DNA from: Rhipicephalus microplus
Lineage: Eukaryota > Arthropoda > Arachnida > Ixodida > Ixodidae
DNA: 64,000 bases
NCBI RefSeq assembly: GCF_043290135.1
Contig: NC_134710.1
Span: 12,663,321-12,727,320, forward strand
Direction of reading: 5' to 3'
In this document: positions 1,360 through 58,330 of the stretch, in pieces
Position numbering within the stretch: position 1 is the first letter of the stretch
Layout of the letters: each line of letters opens with the position of its first letter
Made by a program: the position numbers and the translations under genes
Notes under the pieces: model-generated
Told to the model about the DNA's origin: nothing
The model's input: the letters and a program-made list of their open reading frames with translations, nothing else
The model's database searches: none

Positions 1360-3102
1360 TCATAAAAATCGAACATCGTCTCTCGTTATGCGTGTTAAGG
1401 GCGACGCTATGTGCGAGAAATTGGCGATAAATCTGCGGTAGTAGGCGCAAAGGCCAAGAAAACGTCTTACGGCCTTCTTTTCCGTTGGCACCGGAAATTT
1501 TCGGACGGCGTCGATCTTGTCGGGGTCCGGACGAACACCTTCATGGTTCACCACATGTCCTAAGAATCGGAGTTCCTTGAAACCGAAATGACATTTCTCA
1601 GGTTTCAGCGATAAGCCAGCGGACCGTATTGCTCGAAATACTAAAAGCAGCCGTCTTAGATGTTCCTCGAATGTTGGTGAGAAAACAATGACGTCGTCGA
1701 GGTATACCAGACACGTCTGCCACTTAAGGCCTGATAGGACAGTATCCATCAGTCTCTGAAATGTTGCTGGGGCTGAGCACAATCCGAAGGGCAAGACTTT
1801 AAACTCGTAAAGCCCGTCAGGCGTAACAAAAGCAGTCTTTTCTCTGTCCCGCTCATCAACCTCGATTCGCCAATAACCGCTTTTCAGGTTCATTGACGAG
1901 AAGAAGCGTGCATGCCTCAGCCTGTCAAGTGAATCGTCAATACGCGGTAGTGGATATACGTCTTTCTTTGTCACGCGGTTCAGCTTGCGGTAGTCCACAC
2001 AGAAGCGTAAGCTGCCGTCTTTCTTCTTAACTAGCACTACCGGTGATGCCCAAGGGCTTTTTGACGGCTGAATGATGTCATCATTGAGCATTTCCTGGAC
2101 TTGTTCTTGGATTGCTTCGCGTTCTTTCGGTGCCACGCGGTATGGGTTTTGTCGAATTGGTCTTGCCGTCTCTTCCGTTATAATTCGGTGCTTTGTCAGT
2201 GGCGTTTGATTTACCCTCGAGTTCGACGAAAAACAATCTTCAAACTGGCCGAGAATATCTAGAAGACTGTGCCTCTGCGCTGGCGATAAATCTGTGCTCA
2301 CGTCGACAGGCAGTGGTGTTGAAGCGGCCGGTGTCTCTGCCTGTTGTACTGCGAAGCACTCCCGGAATTCTACAATTTCTTCGAAGTATGCAACTTTGGT
2401 ACCCTCTGCAATGTGTCGACGCTCGTTGCTGAAGTTTGTCAACAGGACCTCTGCTTGCCCAGACACTACACTGACGAGACTTCTGGCAATAGCGATTCCT
2501 CGAGAGAGTAAAAGCGTCGATATTTGTTCCGCGACACCTTCTCCACTATGCTGCGTGTTACACGTGACAGAGACGAGGCGGCATGACAACGGTGGCATGG
2601 TCACGTCGTCAATCACGCGCATGGGCTTGCGCTGCAGCACTGCGCTATAGTCCGCTGAGAAGGTCAGTACACCGTCCGGTATATTTATAATGGCACCGTA
2701 CTCCCGCAGGAAATCCATACCCAAGATGGCCTGTTTACAACACTCAGCAAGAATAACGAAGGTTGCCACGAATGATGAATCCCCAATCTTGATTCGTGCG
2801 GTGCACTTTCCGGTAGGTGTCAGCAGCTGGCCTCCGGCTCCTCTAATTTGCGGCCCCGTCCATTCCATTTTTACCTTCTTGAGTTGGTCGGCCAGATTCG
2901 CACTCATTATTGAAAAGTCCGCACCAGTGTCGACCAGTGCAGTCACGTCGTGACCGTCAATTGAAAGTATAATGTCGGCGGTGACAATCTCGTCTTTCGT
3001 CGGTTCATTCGAAATGTGCGGCACTTCATGCGGCGGTAATGGGGGATTTTCAAATCTTCGGCAATTCGCAACCTTCCCCCCTAAGGTCGCTGCTTTTAGT
3101 TT
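1360..3102 (-). CDS. G1 pol, protease and reverse transcriptase portion
   Basis: This frame starts just after a -1 slip site at the end of gag and is open for 581 codons. It holds an aspartic protease with a DTGAD active site near 2910-2925 and a reverse transcriptase with a YLDDVIVF catalytic motif near 1690-1710, then stops early in the RT/RNase H connection. The first ATG in the frame is at 3024, but the protease context and the upstream open frame suggest expression by frameshifting from gag. The end at 1360 is a premature stop relative to the full pol length of G4 in this window. Confidence 0.85.
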   Translation of the reverse strand, partial: KLKAATLGGKVANCRRFENPPLPPHEVPHISNEPTKDEIVTADIILSIDGHDVTALVDTGADFSIMSANLADQLKKVKMEWTGPQIRGAGGQLLTPTGKCTARIKIGDSSFVATFVILAECCKQAILGMDFLREYGAIINIPDGVLTFSADYSAVLQRKPMRVIDDVTMPPLSCRLVSVTCNTQHSGEGVAEQISTLLLSRGIAIARSLVSVVSGQAEVLLTNFSNERRHIAEGTKVAYFEEIVEFRECFAVQQAETPAASTPLPVDVSTDLSPAQRHSLLDILGQFEDCFSSNSRVNQTPLTKHRIITEETARPIRQNPYRVAPKEREAIQEQVQEMLNDDIIQPSKSPWASPVVLVKKKDGSLRFCVDYRKLNRVTKKDVYPLPRIDDSLDRLRHARFFSSMNLKSGYWRIEVDERDREKTAFVTPDGLYEFKVLPFGLCSAPATFQRLMDTVLSGLKWQTCLVYLDDVIVFSPTFEEHLRRLLLVFRAIRSAGLSLKPEKCHFGFKELRFLGHVVNHEGVRPDPDKIDAVRKFPVPTEKKAVRRFLGLCAYYRRFIANFSHIASPLTRITRDDVRFL

Positions 3103-8927: not shown

Positions 8928-11900
8928 TCAACCGAAGCAACCTTCGAGCGAATACAACAGTTGAATCGGCCTCTTGACTAATTTTCCTTCAGGTGTACGA
9001 AGCAAGCATGTTCTTACTAGTCCATCCTTGCCTGGGAAAATCTTTTTAACCTTGCAGAGTTTCCACCGTGTTCTTTTTCGTGCTTCTTCAAGCAGAAGTA
9101 CATCTCCTTCTTGGATATTTGTGTGACCCTCTATTTTTCTGCTGGCACACTTAAGCTTCCTCAGGTACTTCTTTTTCCACCTGATCCACCATGTTATCAT
9201 TGCCTGTTTTCTCGCACTCCAGTAATTCAACAAACTGTATTCACCGAGTCTGTTTTCTTCCTGCTTGTTCCTTGCTTGCCTGCCTCCTATAATGTCCGCC
9301 TGTGTGATGGGTTGTGGCTCGTTAGGATCGTCATACACATAAGTAAGAGGCGGGTTGTTAAGTACTCCTTCTGCTTCAACAACCACAGTCCGTAGTTCTT
9401 CTTCATCCAAAAGTCGAGCACCTATAGTTTTTGCCATGGATGTCTTAAAGCTTCTGATCAGTCTTTCATAAAATTCTTGCGTTATGTCATAATCAGGTCT
9501 TTGTTTTTCATTCTTGATCCACGTGGGGCCTTTCCACCATAATTCACTTTCCAGCAAACGTTTCACCTTCATCCCCCTTGTCATCAAAGTTTTTATCTTC
9601 GGGGTTGGCATATCTTCGCTGGGTATTCTTTCCCACCACATGAATCGCAGTGCGTCTCGGTCATTTTCATGTATCTTGATCTGCAAGAATGCTTTTTCCA
9701 CGTCGGCTGACATAGCGATCTTGTGATGTCGAAAGTTCATCAGCAAGCTTGTGATGTCGGGGTTTAGGTTTGGCCCCTTTTCCAAGTTGTCATTCAAGGA
9801 TTCACCTGGATTCTGGCCTGACGATGCATCAAAGACGATCCGTATTTCTGTCGTTGTTCGGTCCTTCTTAATTACTGCTTGATGCGGCATGTAGTATATA
9901 AATTTGTTCTGTATATCGGATCCAGCATTTTCTTCGACGTTTTCTGCTATTTCTTGCTCAAAGTACTCTCGAATAGCTTTGTCATAGGCTAGGAACTCAT
10001 CTTTATCCTTGCATAATTTCTTGGTCACCTCGATAAGCCTCTTCTCTGCAATGGTGTTGTTGTCGTCCAATGTCACATTTTCCTTAAATGGCAGCCGCAC
10101 TTGGTATCTTCCTGCCTTGAACTCCATTGTTTGTCGGACGTACTCTAGCACATGTTCATCGCTCATCTTTGTTTCTGGGTTCTCCTTGATGCCCATGTTT
10201 TCCAAGTCCCAGAATCTCTGCAGTTCGTTCGCAGTCGTGTCCGACTTGGCACTGACCTTGAGTACCATAACCATCGATGATTTCATTGGCACACATTGAA
10301 GTCCTACAGGACCTTGGACCGTCCATCCCAATATTGTTTCTATTGCCATTACTTTTGGATGAATCTCGCAAATGCGACCAGTGACGACAGTCCAGTAATA
10401 ATCTGCTCCAATTAATATAGAAGTTTCCATATTTTTTCTTTCTTTGTCCGTCTTCTGGTTGTCATCAGCCAAACGAATTCCCATCGATCTTGCTCTTTCG
10501 TGTATTGTCAATGGTGGCAATGGTAGCACGTCACAGGATATAACTTCTATCTCCAGTGCCTCAATCGTGACTGGCTCTGATGTGGGATCCTTCCTCACGC
10601 TGACCTCGACGACTTTCATGTCTAGTTCCATCTCTCCTCCTCCAAATGATCCTACAGTAATCCTTTCACATCTTTTTACCTTGCACGCTAGTTTTCTTGC
10701 CAATCTTTTGAGGATGAATTTCCTCTGGCTCCCGTTGTCCAGCAGAATCCGTGCGTAGCACCCGCTGTCTTCTCCCTCCGTCCACGAAAAGGCTGTCTGC
10801 AGTAGTATGCACTTGTGTTCATCAGGCTGCTGTGCGTGCATGTTGCAGGACTTGCTGGTGTCTAACCGGTCAGGTTGCGCGCTTTTAAGCACTTGCTCAA
10901 CATCCCCGCTTTGCTGCTGTGCTGACTTTCCTGCAGGCATACGTGGTCGACACATGGATGTCGCGTGCCTTCCCTTGCATGTTTTGCAGCGTACGTTAGC
11001 ACGGCATATCTTCGCCGTGTGGTGAGGTCTGGTGCATCTGAAGCACCTTCGTTCCCGTTGTAAGGCTTCTTTCTTCTGTTGCATACTAATGCTTCTTCTG
11101 CAATCTTCCGTGTAGTGTCCAGTCATCTCACAGAAGATGCATTTCTTAATCGATATGCTTTGAAGCGTAGATGTTCTAGTCCGCCTTATACTGTGCGGTG
11201 ACTGGGTCACGTCGTATTTTTCCTCTCGAGTTTCTTCTCTGCTGCGTATATATATGTTTAAAAACTCCATAATTTCTTTCAAACTGCTCGTGCTGTCTCT
11301 TGACGCTGAGTCTGATTCCGTAGTTGCTGGTCTGTTGTCACCTTTCTTTAACTTCTTCATCTTCATCTCAATCCTCATATTCACCGGTAGCGCAGATTTT
11401 ACAACAGGAGCTATCACTGTGGCGTAACTATCCATTTCCACTCCTAACGACTGCAGTGCTCGTGTGTTCACTTGCAACTTTTGGAAGAGTTTCTTCAACC
11501 CATCTACATCTTTAGGACTCTTCACTGCTTCCAAGTTTGCAAGCTCTTTTATGTAGGTTTCTTTCAAATTATCTTCTCGTCCGAAGGTTTCTTTCAGAAG
11601 AGCGACTGCATGCTCGTAATTCTGTTCAAAAAACTGCAAACCTTCTATAAGGGACGCAGCCTGCCCGCTCAGAGACGCCAGAAGGTAATTAAATTTTTGA
11701 TTCTTCGGCATGTTCACTCTGTTATGCACCGATGTCTCGAACTGATGCCAAAACCTTGGCCATGCTGTTTTTTTCCCATCAAACTTGATCATCTCAAGAC
11801 GTGGCAACTTAACAAGCTCTTGCGTCTCCGAGATTTGGTCAGTACCTTGCACTGAACTCGCTTGTTCTGTGACTATTCTCGTAGTCAGTTGCGTCGCTTG

Positions 11901-24805: not shown

Positions 24806-26639
24806 TTACCCCCGGCGGTAAAAGCGCCGTCTCGGTGCACATTAATTATGGTCTTCAGAAGGCAGGTGGTAAGGTTTTAGCCTGCTGACGTGCGCAACAT
24901 CACTGGGTGTGGTTGCAGGCAGGCTTGTGGTCTGTGATGCAGGAATGATCTTATAGGTGACGTCGGTTACCTGGCGGATGATACGGTAAAGACCCATGTA
25001 GCGAGAGAACAACTTCTCAGTTGATGGCGTTGCAGTGTTTGGAAGTAGGGTGTTGAGTGGTAACTTCAGATCACGGCCATAGAGCAAATAAAAGAGTGAA
25101 TAACCACTGGTATCGTGGCGCGTCATGGTGGTCGGAGGACACATACATCGCGAGCATGTCTGTGAGGGTGTGATTTAGGCGTTCGGTAAGGTCATTTGTT
25201 CGGGGATGGTAGGAAGGGGTCAACTTGTGCTGCGTCGAAGAATAGCGCAAAAGATCGTCTATCACTCGGGACAAAAATGCGCATTGTTCATCACCAATCT
25301 GAAGAAACTGGGACATTGACATGATGCTGAGGCTCGGCTAGATGTCTGATTTGTCAAGCTGATCAACAGGATAGCGGGACAAGCAATCGGCGTCCAGATG
25401 GAGACATCCAGACTTGTGAGAAACTGAGTAGGAATACTCCTATAGGCATAATGCCCAACGGCCAAGTCATCCAGTGTGGTCCTTCAGAGAAGAAAGCCAA
25501 CACAGCATGTGATGATCTGTGATGACACGGAAAGGGCAGCCATACAAGTAAGGAAGGAATTTCGAAACCGCCCAGACAAAGGCGAGACATTCCCGTTCTG
25601 TTATAGAGTAATTGCATTCAGACTTTGAAAGCAGACGGCTTGCATACGCGATTACACTGTCGTTGCCCCGCTGAATTTGTCCCAAAACTGTACCAATTTT
25701 ATGACCACTCGCGTCTGTTCGCTTTCTGTAGGAGCATCGCGGTCAAAATGTGCAAGAATAGGTGTCGTTAGAGCAGTGGTTAGCTGAGAGAAGGCGTCAT
25801 ATTGAAGAGGGCCCCAACAAAACGGGACGTCTTGTTTGAGAAGGTCGGTGAGTGGCCGTGCGAGTGCCGCAAAGTTTTTTATGAACCGTCGAAAGTAGCA
25901 GCAGAGGCCCACGAAACTGTGAACATCAAGGACAGAGCATGGAATTGGGAAGTTTCTTACAGCGCGTACTTTCGCCGGGTCTGGTCGTATGCCGGCAGCG
26001 TCGTCAACAAGGTGACCCAACATGGTAATCTGACGAAGACCGAAGTGGCACTTGGAGGAATTGAGCTGCAGGCCGGCCCGCCGAAATATGGATAGAATGG
26101 TCGAAAGGTGTTCAAGGTGGGTTGCGAAGGTAGGGGAGAAAATGATCATGTCGTCCAGGTAACACAAACATGTCGACCATTTAAATTCTTGTAGGAGAGC
26201 GTCCATCTTTCTCTCGAAGGTCGCTGGAGTGTTGCAGAGACCGAAGGGCGTGACCTTGAATTGGTAAAGACCGTCAGGAGTAAGGAAGGTGGTCTTTTCT
26301 CGGTCCATGTCATCTACAGCAATTTGTCAGTAGCTAGATCGGAGGTCGAGAGATGAAAAGAAGGTGGCGCCATGAAGGCAATCGAGGGCAACGTCAATGC
26401 GTGGTATGTGCTACACGCCTTTTTTGGTAGTTTTGTTGAGGTGGCGATAATCAACGCAAAAACGCCATGAGCCGTCTTTCTTTTTTTACTAATACCACGG
26501 GAGATGCCAAAGGGCTTGATGATAATTGAATTACGTTTTCGGTAAGCATTTTGGCCACTTCTTTTTAAATCACTTCTCACTCGGGCGCCGACACGCGGTA
26601 CGGCTGACGGTGAATGGGCGCAGTCACCAGTGTTGGTTT
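24806..26639 (-). pseudogene. G3 pol, decayed, 3' part
   Basis: Fragments in several frames. The integrase C-terminus is at 24842-25144 (HVSRLKPYHLP) and an integrase core piece at 25071-25322 (SYHPRTNDLTERLN). RNase H pieces lie at 25467-25740, and an RT piece with YLDDMIIF at 25652-26308. The start of RT follows to 26639 with stops. An internal deletion near 25320-25335 joins the RNase H tail to the middle of the integrase. It is closely related to G4. It is cut at 26639 by the DNA transposon and resumes at 36637. Confidence 0.85.
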
Positions 26640-26830
26640 CCCAGACAACACTCGACGACCTGAGGTCGTCCTCATATGGTACAAACGTCCTCGGCAGTTT
26701 CAGGACGTCCTCATTTGGTCCTCTAGTCGACACTTGCAGGATTATCCCCAAAATGCCCCTTTGAGACCTTTTTAAGGACGAAGAATTGTCCTGATATCGT
26801 CTGCTCGAGGACGTTTTGAGGATATGCATG
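26640..26830 (+). repeat. Left TIR and subterminal motif array of the EnSpm-like element
   Basis: TIR from 26640, then repeated forms of tgaggtcgtcctca, aggacgtcctca and gaggacgttttgagga. Comparable arrays are where EnSpm-type transposases bind in plants; binding here is inference. Confidence 0.7.
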
Positions 26831-27634
26831 TTTCGTAGGTGCATGCAGCTTTCGCAATTCGTGTTTGGTTAATTTTCTGGCTGTTAACGAATAAGTCCAC
26901 GGGATTTCGTATGCCTACTTTCGAGTCATAATAGTAAAGTACTTCTCGATCATTAAAATGAGATAGTTACACGAGGAAGCACTTCAAGCCAACACGAGAA
27001 AGACGTGTTCTTTTATTTATTATTTATTTATTTACTTTGTAAGTGATCGTAGGCCAAACTTTCTGCCTGCACGTTTTCGTTGGTCGTGATCTACCGCCGA
27101 CGTGCATACGGAATTATATCGCACTGACTGTGGTCTGACCCGTTTCCCCAATGAACGCACGTGCGGCAGACCAAGTTTGGTGCGAGTATAAACGGTGTCG
27201 GCTCCAAAATGAATGCAGGCGTGAAAACTGTGAATAGCGAGCACGTTATTCTCGAGTGTCCAGTGTTGCAATGCCGCACGGTCCCATCGAGCAGACGACA
27301 ACTGACCATGCTGACGACTGGGCTGGCCTAGGTTATCGTGAATAGAGCAGCATTGGAACTAGAACGCTGTGGGAAAACGAATGGGCGACTGAAGTTGTGG
27401 TGGTGCTAACAAAAAAAAAGCAGTACCTTAATGCGGTCACCATGCGCAGTCAAGGTGCTTTTAAATCTGGATGTCTACGACACTGTTTACCCATTTTAAA
27501 GTGACGCAACTATCATCATCATCATTATGGGCCTGCAGTAAGTCAAGTCGAGTCATTGGTCGAGTCAACATTCCAATACAACACTTCTCGCCATAGAGGA
27601 AGCTTCTCGCAGAAGCCCTCAAAGAATCGTAAGC

Positions 27635-30600
27635 ATGCCAGGTGAGTGTCTTCTGTTAAATTTTCATATTGAAGTTGTAAGCCGCAAAGGTAAATAAATA
27701 AAAAAAGAGAGGACAGTTGATTTTCAGCCTCGCGCTGTATATCTTTACTGCTTATTCATGTATGTATGTACAAACCAACTGACTAGCCTAACAACGTGTT
27801 CTGGTGGTGGGTGTTCTTTGGTCTAGCCACCATTCTACTGTGCTCTGTGCTGTTCAAGATGGCTGAGAGCGCGGATCGCAAATTTCGGCGTGAAATTAAT
27901 CGGCGCGTCAATGCTAGTTTTCAGCTTATTGACAGTGAGGCCGATGTCATAAATGACACGCGGTACGTTGACCGAGATTCCCGCAACGCCGAAAGAGAGA
28001 GCGACTTGCCCTCCGAGGCTTGTGCGGTCGACCTCGAAGACGGCCATCGTCGCCTTTGTGTTCATGACAGAGAACGGCCTTCGGCACACTCCTCGATCGT
28101 TCCAGAAACGGATGTGCCCCAAGGACACGTTTTGATTTCTGGCGACGCGTGCTACCCCAGCGGCTGCAGTGTTTCTGTGCCTCACGATCACACAGACTTC
28201 GAACGGCGTGCCTTCCATGACAGCAGCGCTGCGGCTTCGACTTCGGCGACCTCGCAGGTGAGGCAGAGGGATTCTTTCGAATTGGCACCGACTGGGAGTA
28301 ACGAAGAGCAAGTTTGTGAACGCGGCAGTGTGGACAGCTTGCTGGCCTTTCGTGAGAGACTGCAAGCGTGGGCCTTACAATCTCGCGCATCGCACACTTC
28401 AGTTACATCGCTCTTGAGAGTACTACAGTCCCACGAATGCTTCAGCGCGCTCCCTTCAACTGCAAGGGCATTGTTACAGACGCCCAAGAAGTGCCTGGAA
28501 GTGTTGCAGCTGGCCGGCGGGAAATACCATCATTTCGGCCTCAGTGCAGGCCTACAGCGAGTGCTGCAAGATTGTGCAGAACTACCAAGAATTTTGAAGC
28601 TTAGCTTCAACATTGACGGTCTGCCGGTTTCAAAAAGTTCACGGGGCCAATTTTGGTGCATACTGGGACGCATAAGTAATTTGGAGGACAAAGCACCATT
28701 TATAGTGGGTGTTTTTTTCGGAAGCAGCAAGCCCAACAACGCGAATGATTTTTTGCGACCATTTGTTTGTGACATAAATGCTGCTATCACAACAGGGATT
28801 ACCATTGGAGAAACTGCAATTCCTGTTAGCTTGTATGCCCTCATATGTGATGCACCAGCAAAGGCATTTGTATTATATGTCAGAAGCCACACAGGCTATT
28901 ACAGCTGCACCAAATGTGACGTAAAAGGTGTCTACTGTGAGGGCAGGGTGTGCTTCCCAAACGTCAATGCTCGCAAGCGAACAGATGACAGCTTTCGCTT
29001 AAAAGTCCAGGAGGAGCATCACACAGGCGAAAGTATTCTTGAGGAACTTCCTTTTGACCTAGTGAAAGATATACCATTAGATTACATGCACCTTGTGTGC
29101 TTGGGTGTCATGAACAAGCTCTTGACACTGTGGGTACGTGGCCCAAAAGTGACCAGACTTGGAAGCAAAGTGCGTCTTGAGATGTCGGAAAAAAATTCTC
29201 AAATTGCACGGTGTGTTCCATGTGATTTTAGCCGAAAGCCGAGGAGCATTGCTGAACTTGATCGGTGGAAAGCGACTGAGTTTCGCTTTTTTCTTTTATA
29301 TGGAGGACCCGTTGTTTTGTCATCACTGATTCCTGCACACATGTACAAGAACTTCTTAGCTTTACATGTGGGGATCTCTGTTCTTTCCACACCAGCTGCA
29401 CCTGCAAGTGAGATAGAGTATGCCGGAAACATGCTCAAGTTTTTTATCCGGACATTCATAAGCATTTATGGCAAAGAGCATGTTTCACACAATGTGCATG
29501 GCCTGTGTCATTTGGCAGATGATGTTACACACCTTGGCCCCTTGGACTCATGGAGTGCCTTCCCATTTGAAAACCATATGTCCTCGTTAAAGAGAATGCT
29601 GAGAAAGCCAGACCTTCCCTTGGAGCAACTTTGCAACAGGCTTGCTGAGCAGGCACACCGTCCTCTGAGGCATAAGAAAACTGAAAGCCATGTCGTATTT
29701 GCTGCAGAGCATGCTGACGGGCCACTTGTTGCTCCATGCCGAGGCCCCGAGTTTAAAAAAGTAACATTGCCTGGCAATGTCATTCTTAGAGCTGAAAAGA
29801 GAAATGGGTGCTGTAGGCTAAGTGATGGGTCAATCGTCGTTATTGACAATTTTGCTCATCTCCCGTGCGGTGAGCCATGCATAATTGGAAGGAAGTTCCT
29901 CAAGTGTGAAGATTTTTATTCTCTGCCATGCCCTTCCTCCATACTGGGAATTTACTCAGTGTCTCAGCCTTCTAGTCTGCGGTATTGGCCTCTGAAGAAC
30001 ATCTCACAGAAATGCCTGAAAGTGTATTTGAAAAGGAAAAGCATTGTTTTCCCTCTTTTGCATGCTACAGTGCACATGTAATAAACTTTCACAACTGTGT
30101 CAGAATGTATACAGAATTTGAATTTGGCTTCTCTTTCTTTTGCAAGGTCAATACGTTGTCGTTCTCTTCCCAGAAGAGGATGATACATCTGGGATCATCC
30201 TCAAAAGTTGGCTGAAAGGCGACGGCTGCCTGTGGCCTCGACAAACTAAATATGTACATAGTTTGTTGAAGGCGAAAGCGACTCCAGGGGCTGACTGGAT
30301 AGAAGTGCCTTGCACTGTTGTCCGAGAATTTGGTAAATTATTCCTTATTTATGCTGTTTTACTGCACGTTTTTCAGCGATTTGGTCAGCAATGAAGTAAA
30401 AGGTATGTAATAAACTGCAATTTCAGCATTGTAACTCTAATTGCCACTTTAGATCAAAGTAACTTCTTAAAAGTTTAGATGGGTTCGAGAATATCAGGAA
30501 AAGATATCAGAAGATGGCTTCGAAGAATATCAGAAGATAGCTTCGAGAATATCAGGAAAAAAAGAACAATTATGCGAAATCAAGTATCTCATATTTTGTG

Positions 30601-33600
30601 AATACTTGCATGTCAGCTGTCATTGCAGCAAAATTTAAATGATCCATTTTAATATCATGGGTGACTCTTAGTACCTGCTTGGTAATGACTTATGCAAAGG
30701 AATTGGAGTTCTACTTGTTATGTGTGACAGATCTGAGAAATGATCATGCTTATCATTTAATTAGTAGTTGTTGCCCTTCTTTCTGCAGATACATATGCCG
30801 AAGCACGGGCAAATCTGCCAAGGGTAGAAAATGGATCCAACTTGGACGGCGAGGCAGAACTTGGGAAAGGCAGAAGAAAAAAAAATAAGAGATCCTATGA
30901 GTCTGAAGATGATGAAGGGGCACCATCACCTCCAGCTTCAATGATAAGACGTATAACACCATTTTTGAACTTTACGTAAAGTGAACTGCTTGTACTTATG
31001 TTTTTTAATAGTATTGAATCTTTTTACATCCTGCAATGCCTATTTTACAATGATAGCCCCACGGAATTGCTCACACTGTTTTCTGTTATCTACCGCCAAA
31101 AGTAACACTGGGTTATCTGGCTTTAGGGCTGTGAAATGCTGATTCTGGCTTGCTTTCTTAGGGAGAAAACACAAGCGACCAAGAAATTTAGAGAATCGGC
31201 CACTGCCCACCCAGCCACGGTCATTGGAACATGAAGGTGATATGCTTCTGGGATAAAATCCTGTTTTTTTTTCTTGCTATTTTATTTATCTCTCCTCTTT
31301 ACAACCCCTTTTTCTACACCCCTATGCAGGGTGGCAAACTGGTTAATAACTCCATGTTAACCTCTATTTACTTTTCATTTTCCTTTCCAAAATGTCATGT
31401 CAAATAGCATATGACATGCTTCTGACCTGCGATAACTGAGAATGTCAGCACGCATTTAAGTACTCGCTTCCAACCAAGAGTTTTTGCCAAAGGGGATATT
31501 GTACGTAAACCATGCACATCAGTTTTAGAGCAGCTCTTGAACACCCGTTCTTGCATTGAGTGGGGTCGCCATGGCCATCAGTGGCCTGATGGACATGAAA
31601 AAGTAACTGATAGACACAAAAAATTAAAACTGAGAAGAGAAATACCCAGGGTCGTATCGAATTTGGACACTTGCCCTTTGCTTGGTGTTGAGTATTCCAC
31701 GACAGAGTGATGCTAGCGCTTGAAATTCATTTTTTATATCATTCTCACTGCACAGATTTGTAACTTTGATTATGTTGTAGACGGAGCTGATTTCATGCAA
31801 GGTTTGCAGGTTTTCAGGAGCCATGAAGAAACAATGGAAAATTTGTCTAATCTTCACATGACTATTCTACTGTCCCATTACCCGCTGATTTTTTCTTGCC
31901 TCTGTTTTCTAACAGGGTATGCAGACAAGGCAGGGCGGCAACCACTGCAGCAGCATCGCACCACAGGCCAGGAAGGGGCTTTATGTAAGACTATGTTTGA
32001 TGAACAGCTCAAAGTGCATGTGTAGAATTACATTTCAAAGCTTCACTTATGTTTCTGCAGTGACTAGATCCAATATCAGTGAAGTGCCTGCGTTCGACTC
32101 CAGTTCACCAGCAGGCATTAGGCCATCACAAAGAGCCCCTTCACCGAGAATGGCATCACCTGAGGGTCAAAATGTTTACAGAGGTTCATACAGCAACAAC
32201 TGCAGACCTCTGGGTAAGTGATACAAAAGCTGCCTTCCATGGGTGTCACTTTACGTGTGAAGTCTACCTTCATATTTATTGTGTGTTATGTATGCAAGTT
32301 GTTATTTTACTTTAGGCACCAAGTTTTCCATATGCTAAGCAATATGTTTAGTCTAAAGCTATGGTAGAGCTAAATGGCATGGATGCTTCTTTTCAGTTTT
32401 GGAGCAACTTACTAACTGTAGTTGGTGTGTCAAGTGTAAATGTAGTTCCAGCCTTCTAAACTCTGGAACAACTAAAGCTTTGCATCACTTTGCAACTAAA
32501 GCTTTGCAGCAAGTGTTGATGGAAAGATGGTGGGAGCTTCGCGTAACTGGCCAAAATAACTGTCCCATCACTCTGATTCTTGTCCCTTTTCTTTTTTATG
32601 CAGACAATCTTGAAGGGCCACCATTTCAGCAGCATTACAGCAGTCAGCAAGGGGCTTCATGTAAGACGGTATTTTTGATAAAATGCTCAGGGGCTGTTTT
32701 TAGAATTGTGCAGCTTAAAAGGCTCATCTATGCTTCTGCAGGGACTGCACCCAATAATTGCCACGAGCCTGGCTTAGGCTTTCCCTCAACATCATCTATG
32801 CCTGCTCAGAGAGCAGGATATAATGAGGGGCAAAATGTCATCAGGAATTCTCCTACCAGTAGACACACACCTTCCAATTCCCCTAGCACTAGAAGCATAC
32901 CTTTTGGTAAGTAACATTAGAGCTTCCTTAGATCGGCACCTATTGTGATGCAGACTACCTTTATATTCATTGTTTGGGGAATACAAAGTGTTTTTGCCTG
33001 TACGTTATAAAGGTTTGCAAGTGCTAAGCAACACGTTTCGTCTGATAGCTGCACCAGTGGTAAACAACATAGGGTGCTTATTTGCAATTTCGGAACAATG
33101 TACCAAATGTAGTTGCTTTATCAAGTGTAAATGCCTGTTGTCTCAGAAAAATTGAAGCTAAGGTGCCAGTAATTAAAGCTTTAATACATAAACAACTGTT
33201 ATCACCTTTTTGGTGTACAGAACATGCCTCTTGATCGCAGTGGAAATGAGAAAACTGCGTGTCACTTCGATGGCAATGAGCACGCTTTTACCCCATAATC
33301 AAAAAAAAAATATTTTTTTTTCAGTAGACAGAAATGACAGTGGCATCACTTTGTAGCAAAAACAATGGCAACTGTCACTTGTAGGAACTGTCACTTACAG
33401 AGCATGCAGACAACCTTGAAAGGCAAGTGTTGCAGCAACATAACAGTAGTCAGCAAGGCCCTTCATGTAAGAATACTTTCGATGAAATGTTCAGAGCTAG
33501 TTTTTAGAAGTGCATCTTAAAACCTTCATCTATGCTTCTGTAGGGACTGCACACAATAATACCCATGGGTCTTCATTAGGCTTCCCCTCTAGCAATAGAA

Positions 33601-36199
33601 GCTCACCTCCTGGTAAGTAACATTAAAGCTTTCTTACCCGGGTGCCACTTCAGAGGTGAAGACAATCTTTGTATTTATTGTCTAGGGAATACAGTTTTTT
33701 TTCTCTTTAGATTAAAATCTTTGCAAGTGCTAAGCAAAACGTTTTGTCTTATAGCTGTGCCAGTCGTAAGCAGCATAATTGCTTATTTGCAATTTCGGAA
33801 CAATGTACTAACTGTAGTTGCTTTATCAAGTGTAAATACCTGATGTCTCAGAAAAATTGAAGCGAAGGTGCCACAATTAATACTTTTAATTCATAAACAA
33901 CTGTTGTCGCCTATTTAGTGTAGAGAACATGCCTCTTGATCACAGTGGAAATGAGGACTGTGTGTCACTTTGATGGCGATGAGCACGCTTTTACCCCATA
34001 AATGAAGAGTTATATTTTAAACATTTTTTTTTTGCTTTCGTTGGGAAAGTGATAGTGGCATCACTTTGCTGCAAAAACTATGGCAACTGTTATATGTATG
34101 GTCTGGTCACACATTGTTTCAGTGCTTAAAACATTAAAGTATCTGTTTCTGCTTATTCTATTTTTCACAAATTCACTTAATAACCTAACTTTCAACAATT
34201 TTTCTGAACTTATTCCAAGTTTTTGTTGAAAACTAGGTTGTAAATATATGGGTACACTGAATCACAGCACGCAATGAAGGTGCTTCATCTCAGTGTCAAC
34301 TCTGCATGCGTATTCAGGTCCTAAAAAGGCATCACTGAGCATGCTAACAAAATAACTGAAGCCATGTAGGCACAAATTTCTAAAACCGACAATAATGTGC
34401 AGAGAAGCCATAAACAACTGTGTGCTTGTTTTGCTGTGTTTAGTAGCACTTCTCATTTTCAATGTTATCTCAGCTTTTGCCATTTTATATGTTGCAATTC
34501 AGCGCTATTACTTCATGAACACGTCTTTACAGAATACGTGCGTCAACTCATGCGAATTTCGCAAACTATCCTGATGAGGCTAGAGCAGCTGGGACGACAG
34601 GTTGATGCCATGCAGCAGCACCTTTTCAACACAACAGTGAGGCTTCAAGATGAGACAAATGATGATGTGGTTTTGACACCGGTCAAGGATATTGACCAAT
34701 TTCTAAGTCTTGAGGGGAGACTTGCTGCTGATGGCAACATTAAGCTAAAGCTTGTACGTCATTCATTATATTTTTCTATAATTTTTTTTTCTAGTCACTG
34801 CATTAAGCTACTCTTCTAAAAAAAATAATGACCTCAAAACTGTACAGATACAGCAGCTTGCTGGCCTTGGTGGCTCAACTTTTGGGGCAGCAGCCAGGAG
34901 GATGCTGGAGCTTCTGCTAAGCCTTGAGGTTGCTGTGCAGTTCAGCTGGGCAGGCCAAAAAGGCAAAAGGAAGTTTGTGGATCTAGGTGTCACAGATGTC
35001 ATTTGCAGTGAGTAATTTGTTTCACAACACCATGTGCTGCAAGAGCCGTGTTTGAGTACAGACATTTCTAAGTCTGTTATCCACATTATCTTTCATTTGA
35101 AGTCAATAGCAAAAGAACAATCTTTTCATGAAAGCATTAAATTTTTTAGGATGCTTGCTAATTAAAATTATGTGCTTAAACGTGGAAAATTTTTAGCATG
35201 AAATATCTGTTGTCAGTAAGAAACCCTGCAGCTTCTTCAAGCACACTAGTATACTTGCATGGCACACATACGCAAGCATTCACTACTTGCAGAAGTTATT
35301 ATCAGGTAGCACTACTAGGCATTCTTAACTGTAGTGGAAATCTTATGTACAGATGAAAACTAACAGATGGAAGCTCATAGTGATCACTGAGGATCTCTAA
35401 ACAGGAATAAGTACCTAAGACAAGCTGGTCAACATTTTCATACATGGACGTATTTTCGTCAAAGGCGCCTCATCATTCTTTGCATGCTAGGTTTCAAAAA
35501 AGTTACAATGATGTCTTCTTCGTGGTGTTCTTCTTGTAATGCAACACATAGTGTCAATGTCAGTACTCTTGAAATTAACATGGGGAAGGATGGCAAGGAC
35601 CTTTAATGATGATGTGCCCACCTATCAAAATGTCGATCATGCTGACTAGAGGTACTTCTTCAAACAACCTATGTAGCATTATATTAATGTATTATGTTTG
35701 TGTAATTCCTGTTTTATGAACTTTGTACTTTTTCAGAGGCCGTGAGGCGAAATTTTCCGGAAACAAAAAAAAATGACATCGAGTGTGTGATTAAAGTGTG
35801 GCTTCGGCATGCTGGGGAAAAGCTCCAGAAGCAGCGCTTAAGAACTTCTCGCACTCACCATGAGGGTGAGTTTTATTATCTGTGCTGTTGAAGCTATCAT
35901 AACATATGATACTTTTGCTGTTATAGTTTAAATAATTTTCTTGCCTTACTCGAATTTTGATGTGTATGCAAGCATGAACTATATAAATCATTTTCACCAT
36001 TATATAATGGCTAGTTCGTACCTGCACATTATGGTAATATAATTTTCATTTTATGCTTTCAAATCTGGCATGCTGTTATTGTCTTAATATTCTTATTGAT
36101 ACTCTAAATTCACTTGTGCTTCAAGATATGCTGCTTTCTATTACTACAGAATGTCTTCAAAGTGTCGCGTTGTCAAGCCCATCGGATGAAGACCTCTGA
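27635..36199 (+). CDS. DUF4806-type second protein of the EnSpm-like element, 14-exon model
   Basis: Hand-built model: exons 27635-27641, 30147-30332, 30789-30950, 31162-31236, 31916-31984, 32061-32213, 32604-32660, 32742-32906, 33410-33466, 33544-33612, 34533-34753, 34848-35007, 35737-35865 and 36150-36199. Every intron is GT-AG, the frame never breaks, and the total is 1560 nt (519 aa). The N-terminus (GQYVVVLF..., WLKGDGCLWP, then TYAEARANL) and the C-terminus (LGGSTFGAAARRML, QFSWAGQKGKRKF, VIKVWLRHA) match the DUF4806 family pattern as I know it. The middle is low-complexity S/P/R-rich. Function unknown; a DNA-binding or transposition accessory role would be inference. Small exons, especially exon 1, need RNA support. 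An AATAAA lies near 36251. Confidence 0.7.
27859..30081 (+). CDS. EnSpm/CACTA-like transposase, intact
   Basis: A 740-aa frame from the ATG at 27859 (MAESADRKFRREINRRVN), open without lesions. After an acidic, variable N-terminal third come conserved blocks: FNIDGLPVSKSS near residue 250 and a cysteine-rich YYSCTKCDVKG zinc-like segment near 352. PLDYMHLVCLGV follows near 406 and FPFENHMSSLKRML near 566. These match animal transposase domain proteins that I associate with EnSpm. The open frame extends upstream to a GTG at 27796; an in-phase acceptor at 27825-27826 could link it to the exon at 27635-27641. The stop codon overlaps an AATAAA at 30080-30085. Confidence 0.85.
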   Translation: MAESADRKFRREINRRVNASFQLIDSEADVINDTRYVDRDSRNAERESDLPSEACAVDLEDGHRRLCVHDRERPSAHSSIVPETDVPQGHVLISGDACYPSGCSVSVPHDHTDFERRAFHDSSAAASTSATSQVRQRDSFELAPTGSNEEQVCERGSVDSLLAFRERLQAWALQSRASHTSVTSLLRVLQSHECFSALPSTARALLQTPKKCLEVLQLAGGKYHHFGLSAGLQRVLQDCAELPRILKLSFNIDGLPVSKSSRGQFWCILGRISNLEDKAPFIVGVFFGSSKPNNANDFLRPFVCDINAAITTGITIGETAIPVSLYALICDAPAKAFVLYVRSHTGYYSCTKCDVKGVYCEGRVCFPNVNARKRTDDSFRLKVQEEHHTGESILEELPFDLVKDIPLDYMHLVCLGVMNKLLTLWVRGPKVTRLGSKVRLEMSEKNSQIARCVPCDFSRKPRSIAELDRWKATEFRFFLLYGGPVVLSSLIPAHMYKNFLALHVGISVLSTPAAPASEIEYAGNMLKFFIRTFISIYGKEHVSHNVHGLCHLADDVTHLGPLDSWSAFPFENHMSSLKRMLRKPDLPLEQLCNRLAEQAHRPLRHKKTESHVVFAAEHADGPLVAPCRGPEFKKVTLPGNVILRAEKRNGCCRLSDGSIVVIDNFAHLPCGEPCIIGRKFLKCEDFYSLPCPSSILGIYSVSQPSSLRYWPLKNISQKCLKVYLKRKSIVFPLLHATVHM
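30080..30085 (+). terminator. AATAAA signal overlapping the transposase stop codon
   Basis: The TAA stop at 30079-30081 runs into AATAAA. If used, it would end the transposase transcript before the next exon at 30147; if skipped, the longer DUF4806 transcript could form. Confidence 0.5.
31916..33612 (+). repeat. Three tandem copies of an exon pair in the DUF4806-type gene
   Basis: Three successive units each carry a short exon (31916-31984, 32604-32660, 33410-33466) and a second exon (32061-32213, 32742-32906, 33544-33612) with matching splice sites and intron wording (tcatgtaaga, tatgcttctgcaggga, taagtaacatta). Spacings are about 690 and 806 bases. Units 2 and 3 are closer to each other than to unit 1. 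All exons in the block keep the same splice phase, so duplication adds protein without a frameshift. Confidence 0.75.
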
Positions 36200-36439
36200 A
36201 GGCACAGGGCAAGAAGTCTCATCTAGTGAAAACTGCCAAGTTTCATTCCTGAAAATAAACATGTTTTCTGTGCATTGCTGTTTTTATTGCTATACTTGAA
36301 GAAATTGTTACTGAAACCTCACAGGCAGTGCTTTAAAGAGTGTGCATGTTCAGGCACTTTTGATTGATCAGTTGTCATTTCAGCGCTCCAAAAGAAGAAT
36401 TAGAGCAACTTTTCGTAAGGTCTGATGAGTGCCTAGGTC

Positions 36440-36636
36440 TTGTATGCTTCGTCCTCAAAAAGTACTAGACTCATCATAATGTGCTCTTTTCTGGATGCCC
36501 TGAGGACGATCTGAGGCCGGACAAACGGACTGGTTTAGGACCACTTGAGGTTCATTTGAGGGCTTCCTCAGGTCATACTTTCGTACGGTGTAGGTCATCC
36601 TCAGGACAACCTCAGGTTGTCGGAGCGTTGTCTGGG
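36440..36636 (+). repeat. Right subterminal motif array and TIR of the EnSpm-like element
   Basis: Contains gtcctcaaaa, ccctgaggacgatctgagg, cttgaggttcatttgaggg and cctcaggacaacctcagg, and ends gttgtctggg at 36636. Reverse complemented, it matches the left TIR over the first 10 bases exactly and the next 30 imperfectly. Confidence 0.7.
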
Positions 36637-37050
36637 TTGGTGAGTGACAATTTTAGTCTGGCCCAAGAGACAATCGTGGGTGTCGAAAAAGTCATTGTAT
36701 GAGGTCAAAACCTGGCAGAGAGCATCGGTCTGGTGAGGCGAAAGCTCCGATCCAATCGTCTTTCGAAAAATAGCATAGTCTGAGCTGGGTGACCGCGAGA
36801 CTGCACTTCGATCAGAAGCAGATACAGCGACAATACTGACATCGTCGTCTGTTATGGCAGTTAGCTGGGCTAGCGACATCTGGCAGGGCAACACTTGAGG
36901 GGTGAAACCAAAGTTAAGGAGTGGAAGGAACACACAGTTATCCACTATGGTCGTGATGGTATGGGGTACAGTAACATTGCGTGTCAGCCGAACGTCAGTA
37001 ATCGGCGTAATGGTATAATCACCGTCAGGAATGAGAAGGGCCGATGACAA
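36637..37050 (-). pseudogene. G3 pol, upstream piece (protease to RT linker)
   Basis: Resumes G3 on the far side of the DNA transposon. The frame 36601-37050 reads PDGDYTITPITDVRLTRNV and LGQTKIVTH, clearly homologous to G4 pol at about 42330-42770. It ends abruptly at about 37050, where LINE sequence begins, so protease, gag and 5' LTR of G3 are absent. Confidence 0.85.
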
Positions 37051-44802: not shown

Positions 44803-44983
44803 ACGGCTAGGTGGCTTTAGCCGCCGCCCGATCTAAAGGGTACAGCCACATCCATCCATCCATCCGTCCGTCCGTCCGTCCGTCCGTCCGTCCATCCATC
44901 CATCCATCTGTCCAACCGTCCATCCGTCGATCCATCCGTCCATCCATCCATCCATCCATCCATCCATCCATCCATCCATCCAT

Positions 44984-45017
<34 letters not shown>

Positions 45018-45092
45018 GTCCATCCATCCGTCCGTCCGTCCATCCATCCATCCATCTATCCATCCATCCGTCCGTCCGTCCGTCCGTCCGTG
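44803..45092 (+). repeat. LINE-like 3' end followed by a (TCCA/TCCG)n microsatellite
   Basis: ggtggctttagccgccgcccg and aaagggtacagcca lead into (catc)n/(cgtc)n for about 240 bases. The shape matches the 3' tail at 46220-46297, which also ends in catccatcc, so the microsatellite probably grew from a LINE tail. Frames through it are repeat artefacts. Confidence 0.7.
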
Positions 45093-55555: not shown

Positions 55556-57334
55556 TTATGGGCGTTGTCGTCGAGAAGACTGCGCCGTTGGTAGTTGCTC
55601 TTCGTTTTTTTTATTTACTTGTGCGATATTTTTACTGTCTTCGTCCCAAGTAAAAAGACGACCGTTTATCTGAACTTTGTCAAAAATAAGCCTTACCCTT
55701 TCCCCTCTATCGCGGTTTTCTTTCGTGATTTTCCACAGTTTTCTTCTAGTTTCACGCACGCCAAACGAGTAATCCTCGCTTATTGAGTAACCGCTCCCTT
55801 TCAGTTTGGAACAGGACTGGAGTATTTTAACTTTGTCGCGATAATCGAGCAACTTGAGAATTATTGGCCTGTTTTTCGGATCGCCTTCTCTAGTTCTACC
55901 AAGTCGGTGGATACGTTCAATGCCTGCACTCTTTACGTCTAGTATATCTTCAAATATTTCCTTTGATACGAGGTTATGAAGCTCTTGAAAGGACTCGTTT
56001 TGTTGTTCCTCAACTCCGTACACAATCAGGTTGGACCTCCGACTTCTGTTCTCTAGTTCTTCGATTTTCCTATTCATGCCTTTGATGTTATTTTCTAGTT
56101 CCACTATTCGCTTTACGCAATCAGAAACCTGCTTTTCCAGTCCACTAATTTTTTCAAGTTTCTTATCGATTGCAGTTAGTTTCTGATTTGTGACGGATTT
56201 TTCTTTCTTGATTTCCTTTATGTCGTCTGCGATTGCCTTTAGTTGCTTTGACCAATCGCCCTCTGTAGGCCCTGGATTAGTTTCTACGTCGCCACTAAGT
56301 AACAACAGGTAGCGAAGAGAATCAGTCACGTTAGTAAGCATTTCGCACATTGACCATGGGCATGGCAGCAAGAATAAGCAAACGTTATTGCTACGGTGAC
56401 ACTTTCCGTATCGTTTGCTCACCTGTACGAAAAACATGATCGGGTTTGAAGTCCGTATCATGGCGTTGCCGCCATGCCCACTGTCAGGTGCCGCGGTGAA
56501 GAGCCGTTTTATAGTCCCGTTGACGAATGCATCCGTTAACGCCCCTGGTGGATCCGATGACGTCATCTGTGCTCCTCCGGGAACGATGTTTAGCCGATGA
56601 AAGACCACGGGCATCGGCTTTTCTTGATCGGTTACCGAGAACATAGCTGGCGATGAAGGGGCGTTGTTCATCGGTGATAGCCACGCTGGGACAAACAGCA
56701 ATCCAAGCAGAACCTGTACGAAAAACATGATCGGGTTTGAAGTCCGTATCATGGCGTTGCCGCCATGCCCACTGTCAGGTGCCGCGGTGAAGAGCCGTTT
56801 TATAGTCCCGTTGACGAATGCATCCGTTAACGCCCCTGGTGGATCCGATGACGTCATCTGTGCTCCTCCGGGAACGATGTTTAGCCGATGAAAGACCACG
56901 GGCATCGGCTTTTCTTGATCGGTTACCGAGAACATAGCTGGCGATGAAGGGGCGTTGTTCATCGGTGATAGCCACGCTGGGACAAACAGCAATCCAAGCA
57001 GAACCTGTACGAAAAACATGATCGGGTTTGAAGTCCGTATCATGGCGTTGCCGCCATGCCCACTGTCAGGTGCCGCGGTGAAGAGCCGTTTTATAGTCCC
57101 GTTGACGAATGCATCCGTTAACGCCCCTGGTGGATCCGATGACGTCATCTGTGCTCCTCCGGGAACGATGTTTAGCCGATGAAAGACCACGGGCATCGGC
57201 TTTTCTTGATCGGTTACCGAGAACATAGCTGGCGATGAAGGGGCGTTGTTCATCGGTGATAGCCACGCTGGGACAAACAGCAATCCAAGCAGAACCTGTA
57301 CGAAAAACATGATCGGGTTTGAAGTCCGTATCAT
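55556..57334 (-). CDS. LINE ORF1 with monomer repeats, 2A-like motif and coiled coil
   Basis: 592 codons open through the 5' monomers. Each monomer encodes a 97-residue block starting MIRTSNPIMFFVQV with a hydrophobic signal-like stretch (LLGLLFVPAWLSP). After the last partial block the frame reads SKRYGKCHRS, then a hydrophobic segment and LLLLSGDVETNPGP. A coiled coil follows (KQLKAIADDIKEIKKEK to ENNIKGMNRKIEELEN) and then an RRM-like NLIVYGVEE region, as in LINE ORF1 RNA-binding proteins. The natural start may be the ATG in the last monomer or its MFF methionine; the upstream blocks may be untranslated promoter DNA that happens to be open. Confidence 0.8.
   Translation of the reverse strand: MIRTSNPIMFFVQVLLGLLFVPAWLSPMNNAPSSPAMFSVTDQEKPMPVVFHRLNIVPGGAQMTSSDPPGALTDAFVNGTIKRLFTAAPDSGHGGNAMIRTSNPIMFFVQVLLGLLFVPAWLSPMNNAPSSPAMFSVTDQEKPMPVVFHRLNIVPGGAQMTSSDPPGALTDAFVNGTIKRLFTAAPDSGHGGNAMIRTSNPIMFFVQVLLGLLFVPAWLSPMNNAPSSPAMFSVTDQEKPMPVVFHRLNIVPGGAQMTSSDPPGALTDAFVNGTIKRLFTAAPDSGHGGNAMIRTSNPIMFFVQVSKRYGKCHRSNNVCLFLLPCPWSMCEMLTNVTDSLRYLLLLSGDVETNPGPTEGDWSKQLKAIADDIKEIKKEKSVTNQKLTAIDKKLEKISGLEKQVSDCVKRIVELENNIKGMNRKIEELENRSRRSNLIVYGVEEQQNESFQELHNLVSKEIFEDILDVKSAGIERIHRLGRTREGDPKNRPIILKLLDYRDKVKILQSCSKLKGSGYSISEDYSFGVRETRRKLWKITKENRDRGERVRLIFDKVQINGRLFTWDEDSKNIAQVNKKNEEQLPTAQSSRRQRP
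56267..56308 (-). other. 2A-like translational skipping motif in ORF1
   Basis: LLLLSGDVETNPGP fits the 2A consensus D(V/I)ExNPGP. The predicted skip is between G and P at about 56269/56270. 2A motifs near the ORF1 N-terminus are known for some non-LTR retrotransposons; activity here is inferred only from the motif. Confidence 0.85.
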
Positions 57335-57354
57335 GGCGTTGCCGCCATGCCCAC
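56421..57354 (-). repeat. 291-bp tandem monomers at the LINE 5' end
   Basis: Three nearly identical units start at 56421, 56712 and 57003 (acctgtacgaaaaacatgat marks each), and a fourth partial unit runs from 57294 to 57354. The period is exactly 291 bases, a multiple of three, and has no stop in the ORF1 frame. Each full unit contains the palindrome tgacgtca (56558-56565, 56849-56856, 57140-57147), a CRE/ATF-type site. Position and structure resemble the promoter monomers of some mammalian LINEs. Confidence 0.92.
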
Positions 57355-58330
57355 TTTATATACGAGCACGTTTATACGAGCACGTTGGCGGCACTGTGCG
57401 AGTCGTGAAACGTATTCCTCTGAAGAGGATGGAGACGAATTCGCTTGGCAGGTAAAGAAAGAGACGTCCAGGAAAGAAGTAGGGGAGCGCCCATAAACTA
57501 GGTAAAATGGCGAGTAGCCGGTTGTCCGCTGAATGGCCGTATTGTAGGCGAAAGTGACGAATGGTAGAACTACGTCCCAGTTTTTGTGATCTGGTTGAAT
57601 ATAGGCGGCGATCATGTCAGCAAGAGTGCGGTGGAATCGCTCAGTGAGGCCGTTCTGGGGATGATAACTAGAGGCAGTCTTGTGAGTTGTGCCGGGGGCG
57701 TGAAGAAGTTCGTTCACTAGCTGTGAAAGAAAGAGCCTTCCACGGTCACTGAGCAACACATGTGGAGCACCATGACGCAGTATAATGGCTCGGAGGATGA
57801 AATCGGCAATTTCAGAAGCTGAACCACTAGTAATGGATGCCGTCTCGGCGTAGCGCGTCAAATGATCAACGGCTGTTACTATCCACCGGTTTCCAGCAGC
57901 ACTAACTGGGAGGGGGCCATAACGATCGACGCCTACAACTTCGAATGGTGTGGCTGGGCACGGAAGAGGCTGTAGTGTACCGGCGGGAGCAGATGTTGGT
58001 AGTTTTCTACATTGACGAGTAGTGCAGGACCCGACGTACCAAGCTACACTAGTGGTAATGATTGGTCAATAAAACCGACTTCGAAGGCGATCGTAGGTTT
58101 TATGGTAACCAAGGTCACCAGCAGTCCAATGGTCATGAAGCACTCTGAGGACTTCGGACCGAAGTGATCGGGGTAGGACGGGAACCCAGCGCTGACCGTC
58201 AGGATGGCAAATTTTGCGGTACAGCACCGAGTTGTCCAGCTTAAATTGCGAGAGTTGGCGACGGAGCCTTGCATTAGGTGGACGGGAACTGCCAGTGAGG
58301 TAACATATAATACGTCGACAATATGGTTCA
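57355..58330 (-). pseudogene. G5 integrase, broken
   Basis: The frame 57331-57861 carries the core (RHGAPHVLLSDRG, SYHPQNGLTERF, FAYNTAIQRTTGYSPFYLVYG); its last codons at 57331-57354 are LINE sequence. A T is missing from the usual HPQTNG. Upstream to 58330 are the zinc-region pieces (GYHKTYDRLRSRFY) in other frames. Frameshifts and stops make this a dead copy. Confidence 0.85.

Follow-up and report, generated by a model that had tools for sequence, protein, structure and literature searches.

The window analysed here is a stretch of 64,000 nucleotides of the cattle tick Rhipicephalus microplus (contig NC_134710.1, positions 12,663,321 to 12,727,320, forward strand), and positions 26640..36636 on its plus strand are occupied by a whole 9997-bp transposable element of CACTA (EnSpm) type, both ends of which are exact. 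The left end reads CCCAGACAACACTCGACGACCTGAGG and the right end, as its reverse complement, CCCAGACAACGCTCCGACAACCTGAGG; the terminal inverted repeats are imperfect, ~33 bp long, and start with CCCAGACAAC (CCC termini). The dinucleotide TT flanks the element on both sides. Its borders and first gene, an open reading frame (ORF) for a transposase, are laid out as follows, with the basis of each row after the semicolon.

26638..26639 (unstranded): target duplication TT, left; matching 2-bp flanks in 39 of 40 copies
26640..36636 (+): whole CACTA/TRC-type element, 9997 bp; same end pair at 64 genome places
26640..26672 (+): left terminal inverted repeat, beginning CCCAGACAAC; first 32 bases exact at 68 places
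26640..26840 (unstranded): left subterminal region with repeated AGGACG/CGTCCTC; motif enrichment
27859..30081 (+): transposase ORF, 740 aa, with D253, D331, E571, CxxC 350/353 and HxxxH 547/551; ORF and alignment
36437..36636 (unstranded): right subterminal region with repeated CCTCA/TGAGG; motif enrichment
36604..36636 (-): right terminal inverted repeat; exact 33-mer at 65 places
36637..36638 (unstranded): target duplication TT, right; matching 2-bp flanks in 39 of 40 copies

The borders were checked against the 3.26-Gb R. microplus assembly (1202 contigs), where the exact left-end 32-mer occurs at 68 places and the exact right-end 33-mer at 65; the same end patterns read backwards, as a control, gave 0 matches in the genome. 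When ends were paired by contig and strand, 4 of the 68 left and 1 of the 65 right ends had no partner. The census covers copies with exact ends and those with mutated ends fall outside it, so that there are at least 64 two-ended copies, spread across many contigs: 15 of exactly 9997 bp (window copy included), 3 of 9998 bp, 1 of 14,732 bp and 45 internally deleted. In a separate spot check on 20 right ends, from the 25 remaining right-end copies, a left end lay ~9997 bp away in 7. With this pair of ends delimiting 64 copies, of which 15 measure exactly 9997 bp, the borders in the window are not a chance match. The original prediction, made from the window's sequence, had described a 9997-bp unit with matching inverted ends and proposed searching the assembly for other 10-kb copies; both the ends at 26640 and 36636 and the existence of such copies are borne out.

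Matching 2-bp flanks were present in 39 of the 40 copies read at both ends, involving 13 different dinucleotides, the exception being copy L026 (CC/AG). These 40 flank pairs comprise the window copy, 19 of the first 20 copies fetched (L017 has no right end) and 20 further ones; the duplication count thus covers 40 of the 64 two-ended copies. The TT duplication had initially been argued from an alignment to a sequence called G4, which we did not reproduce: the only related left-flank copy found in the window (1784-2145, 66% identical) ends before the junction. The duplication is nevertheless settled without that alignment, since 39 of 40 insertions, the window's included, have matching dinucleotides. 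Next to the termini, the two 200-bp ends contain AGGACG 8 times, where the interior leads one to expect 0.08, and the final 200 bp contain CCTCA/TGAGG 8 times, compared with 0.37 after single-base shuffling, both motifs having been picked after looking. Two of the copies have features of their own: the 14,732-bp copy (L014) carries a 4735-bp insertion near element position 1198, which holds a 402-aa open stretch with a putative resemblance to a Harbinger-type transposase, and L017 breaks off after element position 9441 into palindromic sequence.

The transposase ORF runs from an ATG at 27859 to a stop ending at 30081 and is undamaged, as first proposed. The window copy and 6 of 7 long copies read to ~9.4-9.5 kb (L014 and L017 among the six) have the 740-aa frame open; L013 has a single changed residue and L020 a frame break. 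Of the 18 copies measuring 9997-9998 bp, 17 have a transposase frame of 764 codons uninterrupted by a stop, the L020 locus being the exception. An NCBI R. microplus protein (P0001) matches at 100% identity over 86% of the length. All 18 aligned sequences (the window protein plus 17 chosen among the 120 relatives listed) carry the same residues at D253, D331, C350, C353, H547, H551 and E571. The passages of PMC12730594 consulted give these residues as common to EnSpm, Mirage, Chapaev and Transib and characterise CACTA/EnSpm (CMC) transposases by a DDE triad in which C(2)C and H(3-4)H stand between the second D and the E; the tick transposase shows this catalytic motif. The Pfam models Transposase_21 and DUF4218 gave no match to the window transposase at E 10 (they matched 2 and 6 of the 18 aligned sequences, respectively); the assignment to the superfamily is based on catalytic motifs, ends, duplication size and relatives. 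A profile search of both proteins, as originally suggested, gave a DUF4806 match in the second protein just below the cut-off (24.6 against 25 bits) and no CACTA model on the transposase. A match of the transposase to DUF4599 fell below threshold and was dismissed as chance. A sequence search of the PDB with the transposase returned no match. A scan of viral contigs turned up no relative, and Foldseek against viral models no match at E <= 0.001. In a tree of 25 chosen rows, rooted at the midpoint, the tick transposase groups with Haemaphysalis and Amblyomma proteins (support 100/100); that group nests in a 12-row clade (100/99), consisting of ticks as far as its rows are named (P0011 carries no name) and separate from the rows of insects, springtails and fish.

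The second gene was rebuilt as a 14-exon model of 1560 nt (519 aa plus stop) with GT-AG at 13 of 13 introns, in agreement with the frame proposed for it at the outset. Its exons are listed below; except where stated, each rests on the rebuilt model and NCBI proteins.

27635..27641 (+): exon 1 (ATGCCAG, 7 bases), upstream of the transposase ORF; the P0121 start MPGQYVVV requires the splice
30147..30332 (+): exon 2, N-terminal alpha/beta domain
30789..30950 (+): exon 3
31162..31236 (+): exon 4
31916..31984 (+): exon 5, exon pair, first copy
32061..32213 (+): exon 6
32604..32660 (+): exon 7, exon pair, second copy
32742..32906 (+): exon 8
33410..33466 (+): exon 9, exon pair, third copy; NCBI acceptor 9 nt upstream
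33544..33612 (+): exon 10; exons 9-10 skipped in NCBI isoform X3
34533..34753 (+): exon 11, coiled coil and start of DUF4806
34848..35007 (+): exon 12, DUF4806/BEN-like; rebuilt model and domain searches
35737..35865 (+): exon 13, DUF4806/BEN-like
36150..36199 (+): exon 14 with stop; rebuilt model, same C-terminus in NCBI P0123

Exon 2 begins at 30147, just past the transposase stop, and both the sequence and the NCBI gene models place the transposase ORF within intron 1 of the second gene. The NCBI proteins P0121 and P0122 (LOC142765550 isoforms X1 and X3) start MPGQYVVVLFPEEDD, an N-terminus that needs exactly the exon-1-to-exon-2 splice across the transposase ORF. P0121 corresponds to exons 1-13 of our model, apart from the exon 9 acceptor lying 9 nt upstream, while P0122 is without exons 9-10; both terminate in intron 13, and the exon-14 C-terminal end is held by P0123. 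As annotated gene models, the two isoforms differ by exons. Exon pairs 5-6, 7-8 and 9-10 (31916-33612) are three diverged copies of one module, ~700-800 bp apart, the third being the one skipped in an NCBI isoform. The original prediction of an intact two-gene element stands as regards the intactness of both genes, but a side-by-side layout would understate how closely they are nested.

An alternative to separate products is that transposase and DUF4806 part are made as one fusion protein, spliced from within the transposase ORF. The gene predictions P0018 (R. microplus) and P0126 (R. sanguineus) have a common junction, FNID|E-Y-RQLM, and P0012 joins GRIS to QYVVV. These models are unreviewed, however, and their donors lie beside or shortly after the first catalytic residue, so that the products would be without most of the catalytic core. 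At the DNA level, an in-frame read-through from transposase to DUF4806 was found only in L018 among 20 loci checked (13 of them deleted), where a deletion fuses a truncated transposase in frame to the DUF4806 part, and the same fusion is also annotated as a tick gene (NCBI protein P0125). Read-through fusion is thus not general; splicing could still join parts elsewhere, and NCBI models P0127 and P0128 are such joins. We regard a fusion as the element's regular product as unlikely.

The DUF4806 (PF16064) match of the second protein lies 0.4 bits below the Pfam cut-off, and the Haemaphysalis relative P0137 reaches 30.2 bits. In fold prediction, the top five rows for this domain are all BEN domains, at moderate score, and the structural alignments to BEN proteins have a sequence identity of 12-16%; a plain Foldseek search of the PDB gave no pointer to BEN for the domain, and a PDB sequence search with the whole protein returned two weak, unrelated matches only. 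The domain is therefore predicted to be BEN-like, sharing its predicted fold with BEND6, Insv, NACC1 and BANP at low identity, and its DNA binding is likewise a prediction. In the part of PMC11075544 consulted, DUF4806 is stated to be a BEN subtype. The designation of a DUF4806-type partner was right, and its description as little characterised has to be tempered, DUF4806 being already described as a BEN-type DNA-binding domain. We consider the second protein a probable TnpA-like DNA-binding partner of the transposase.

The pairing of transposase and partner recurs beyond this family. Allacma fusca P0095 has transposase and DUF4806 in a single gene model; in the single Ornithodoros model P0008 the transposase comes with the partner's N-terminal portion, without a DUF4806 match; in Haemaphysalis the two carry neighbouring gene numbers, on contigs equally long; and a full-length partner exists in R. 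sanguineus (P0124, 54% identical). Within the R. microplus genome, the cousin L095, which looks degraded, carries exons of DUF4806 type a few hundred bases downstream of its transposase, and the paired cousin is 57% identical to the Dermacentor query P0013. This recurrence speaks against the DUF4806 gene being a captured host gene or a passenger with no role in transposition, as do the open partner frame, the interleaving of its first exon with the transposase and a predicted BEN-like fold suited to DNA binding. On the other side, 4 of 5 cousin loci (L107, L109, L110 and L111, of which L107, L110 and L111 look like one family) have no DUF4806-type exon within ~1.2 kb downstream of the transposase, and excerpts of the literature count DUF4806-bearing genes in zebrafish, Hydra and a beetle. 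On balance, a mere passenger seems improbable to us.

Compared with the window copy, 20 other copies carry 18 substitutions over 128,702 aligned bases, one shared site accounting for 7 of them, and a few short indels. The copies read at length were drawn from the best 40 of 300 candidates, all with 100% identity at the left end, and because the sample was chosen by perfect left ends this figure is a lower bound on family divergence, biased to young copies. If neutral sites change at a few 1e-9 per site per year, an assumed value not calibrated in ticks, the age would be in the tens of thousands of years or lower. No difference separates the window copy from L027 across the 9500 bases compared. 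That the family moved very recently, as had been suggested, is well supported by the near-identity, the target duplications and the copy census.

The 45 internally deleted copies span 3129-9330 bp and have 43 different lengths (4836 and 4849 each occur twice). All 13 deletion junctions read are distinct: 5 show microhomology of 1-2 bases (L012: 14, inexact) and 8 contain filler of 1-54 bases, the longer fillers of L010, L015, L025 and L028 repeating, by eye, element sequence beside the breakpoint. Incomplete gap repair after excision leaves such junctions, by analogy with plant En/Spm and fly P elements. Left breakpoints lie inside the transposase ORF in 11 of the 13 derivatives, L015 and L026 keeping the ORF whole. 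Near-identity over 10 kb, together with two pairs of copies of common deletion length, might also be explained by assembly duplication, segmental duplication or gene conversion in place of recent transposition. We find this highly improbable given 40 copies in visibly different flanks, 39 of them with their own 2-bp duplication, the dispersal over many contigs and the absence of any shared junction among the 13.

A different question is whether the element, although young, is already silenced or dead, with no active source now. The broken transposase frame in one 9998-bp copy fits such a state; the exact full length kept in 15 copies, the open frame in 17 of the 18 copies of 9997-9998 bp and the identity between the window copy and L027 argue against it. 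We consider extinction of the source rather unlikely, though a good deal less remote than duplication or conversion, and the family, as far as its sequences tell, may still be able to move.

The available passages of PMC1636069 describe animal TRC elements of the CACTA superfamily (SmTRC1 of Schistosoma, with others in Aedes and Tribolium) as having CCC termini and alternative splicing; SmTRC1 is 4.5 kb long, carries a Transposase_21 domain and shows 2-bp duplications in 7 of 14 copies, and an Aedes element is 9.2 kb long with ends CCCAGTCAAC. The tick element shares the CCC termini and the 2-bp duplications, agrees in alternative splicing as far as the NCBI gene models go, and matches the Aedes ends at 9 of 10 letters. 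It differs from SmTRC1 in its length of 9997 bp and in a protein that has the catalytic motifs in place but no Transposase_21 at Pfam level; from the animal TRC elements generally in its many near-identical full-length copies; and in a DUF4806/BEN-like second protein, a name that the SmTRC proteins do not carry in those passages. According to the parts of PMC2613891 at hand, the large tnpD ORF of maize lies in the intron-1 region of tnpA, TnpA recognises subterminal repeats, and both maize proteins are required for transposition. Maize En/Spm thus resembles the tick element in the transposase ORF within the first intron of a multi-exon second gene, in subterminal repeats and in deletion derivatives, whereas it has CACTA ends instead of CCC, and the soybean relative Tgmt has a 3-bp instead of a 2-bp duplication (PMC2613891, PMC1636069; excerpts). 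Judged by sequence comparison, the tick element is a new member of the already known animal TRC kind of CACTA, and the original identification, an EnSpm/CACTA-like tick element whose partner protein is of DUF4806 type, was right in view of motifs, ends, duplication size and relatives. What is added is a young, countable family, a nested gene layout made explicit, and a partner assigned to DUF4806/BEN.

We conclude, with a probability of about 0.8, that the window holds a complete, very recently mobile cut-and-paste CACTA (EnSpm) transposon of the TRC branch, with a splice-switched transposase and a DNA-binding DUF4806 partner; its borders, 2-bp duplications, near-identical copies, open transposase frame with motifs and upstream exon 1 are direct observations. 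In the mechanism that we propose, alternative splicing of one primary transcript would decide the product: retention of intron 1 would yield the transposase, and its removal the DUF4806 protein. The latter, like maize TnpA, would bind the AGGACG/TGAGG repeats near both ends and help to bring the ends together, and the transposase would cut at CCC and insert with a 2-bp stagger. Excision gaps incompletely repaired from a sister copy would yield the deletion derivatives, which keep both ends and could be mobilised in trans.

A broader reading, which we offer tentatively and at somewhat less than even odds, is that DUF4806/BEN might be a general second subunit of animal CACTA elements, equivalent to TnpA; that the interleaved, splice-switched pair would be shared by plants and animals; that the DUF4806 genes of hosts, those expanded in zebrafish and Hydra for example, would descend from such transposons; and that the tick transposase-BEN fusion derivative could act as a repressor. 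We know of no report of plant TnpA being BEN-like. Our literature search, outside which Pan et al. 2023 and Repbase lay, found no report joining BEN/DUF4806 to CACTA elements, and a search on ticks and CACTA had no "CACTA transposon" among the matches listed.

As for the surroundings, the insertion interrupts a minus-strand retroelement, and the ORF next to it on the left (25652-26308) encodes a reverse transcriptase domain. Elsewhere in the window, a 291-bp unit is repeated head-to-tail 3.2 times at 56421-57355, its copies matching 100%, and a CATC microsatellite of 241 bp lies at 44849-45089. The genome also holds a further transposase family, with 41-42% identity to P0013, at C23:8069621-8071375 (-), C11:234987756 and C11:432245068; its C23 member has an open 720-aa frame and no DUF4806-type exon within ~1.2 kb downstream.

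Animal CACTA elements that are both young and whole offer practical material for testing how this branch moves, and 15 copies of equal length with 45 derivatives in one genome provide ready substrates. The nested gene pair makes a clear prediction on splicing and on the job of DUF4806, a domain with little literature. For the cattle tick itself, a mobile family of this kind is a likely source of insertion polymorphism between tick populations.

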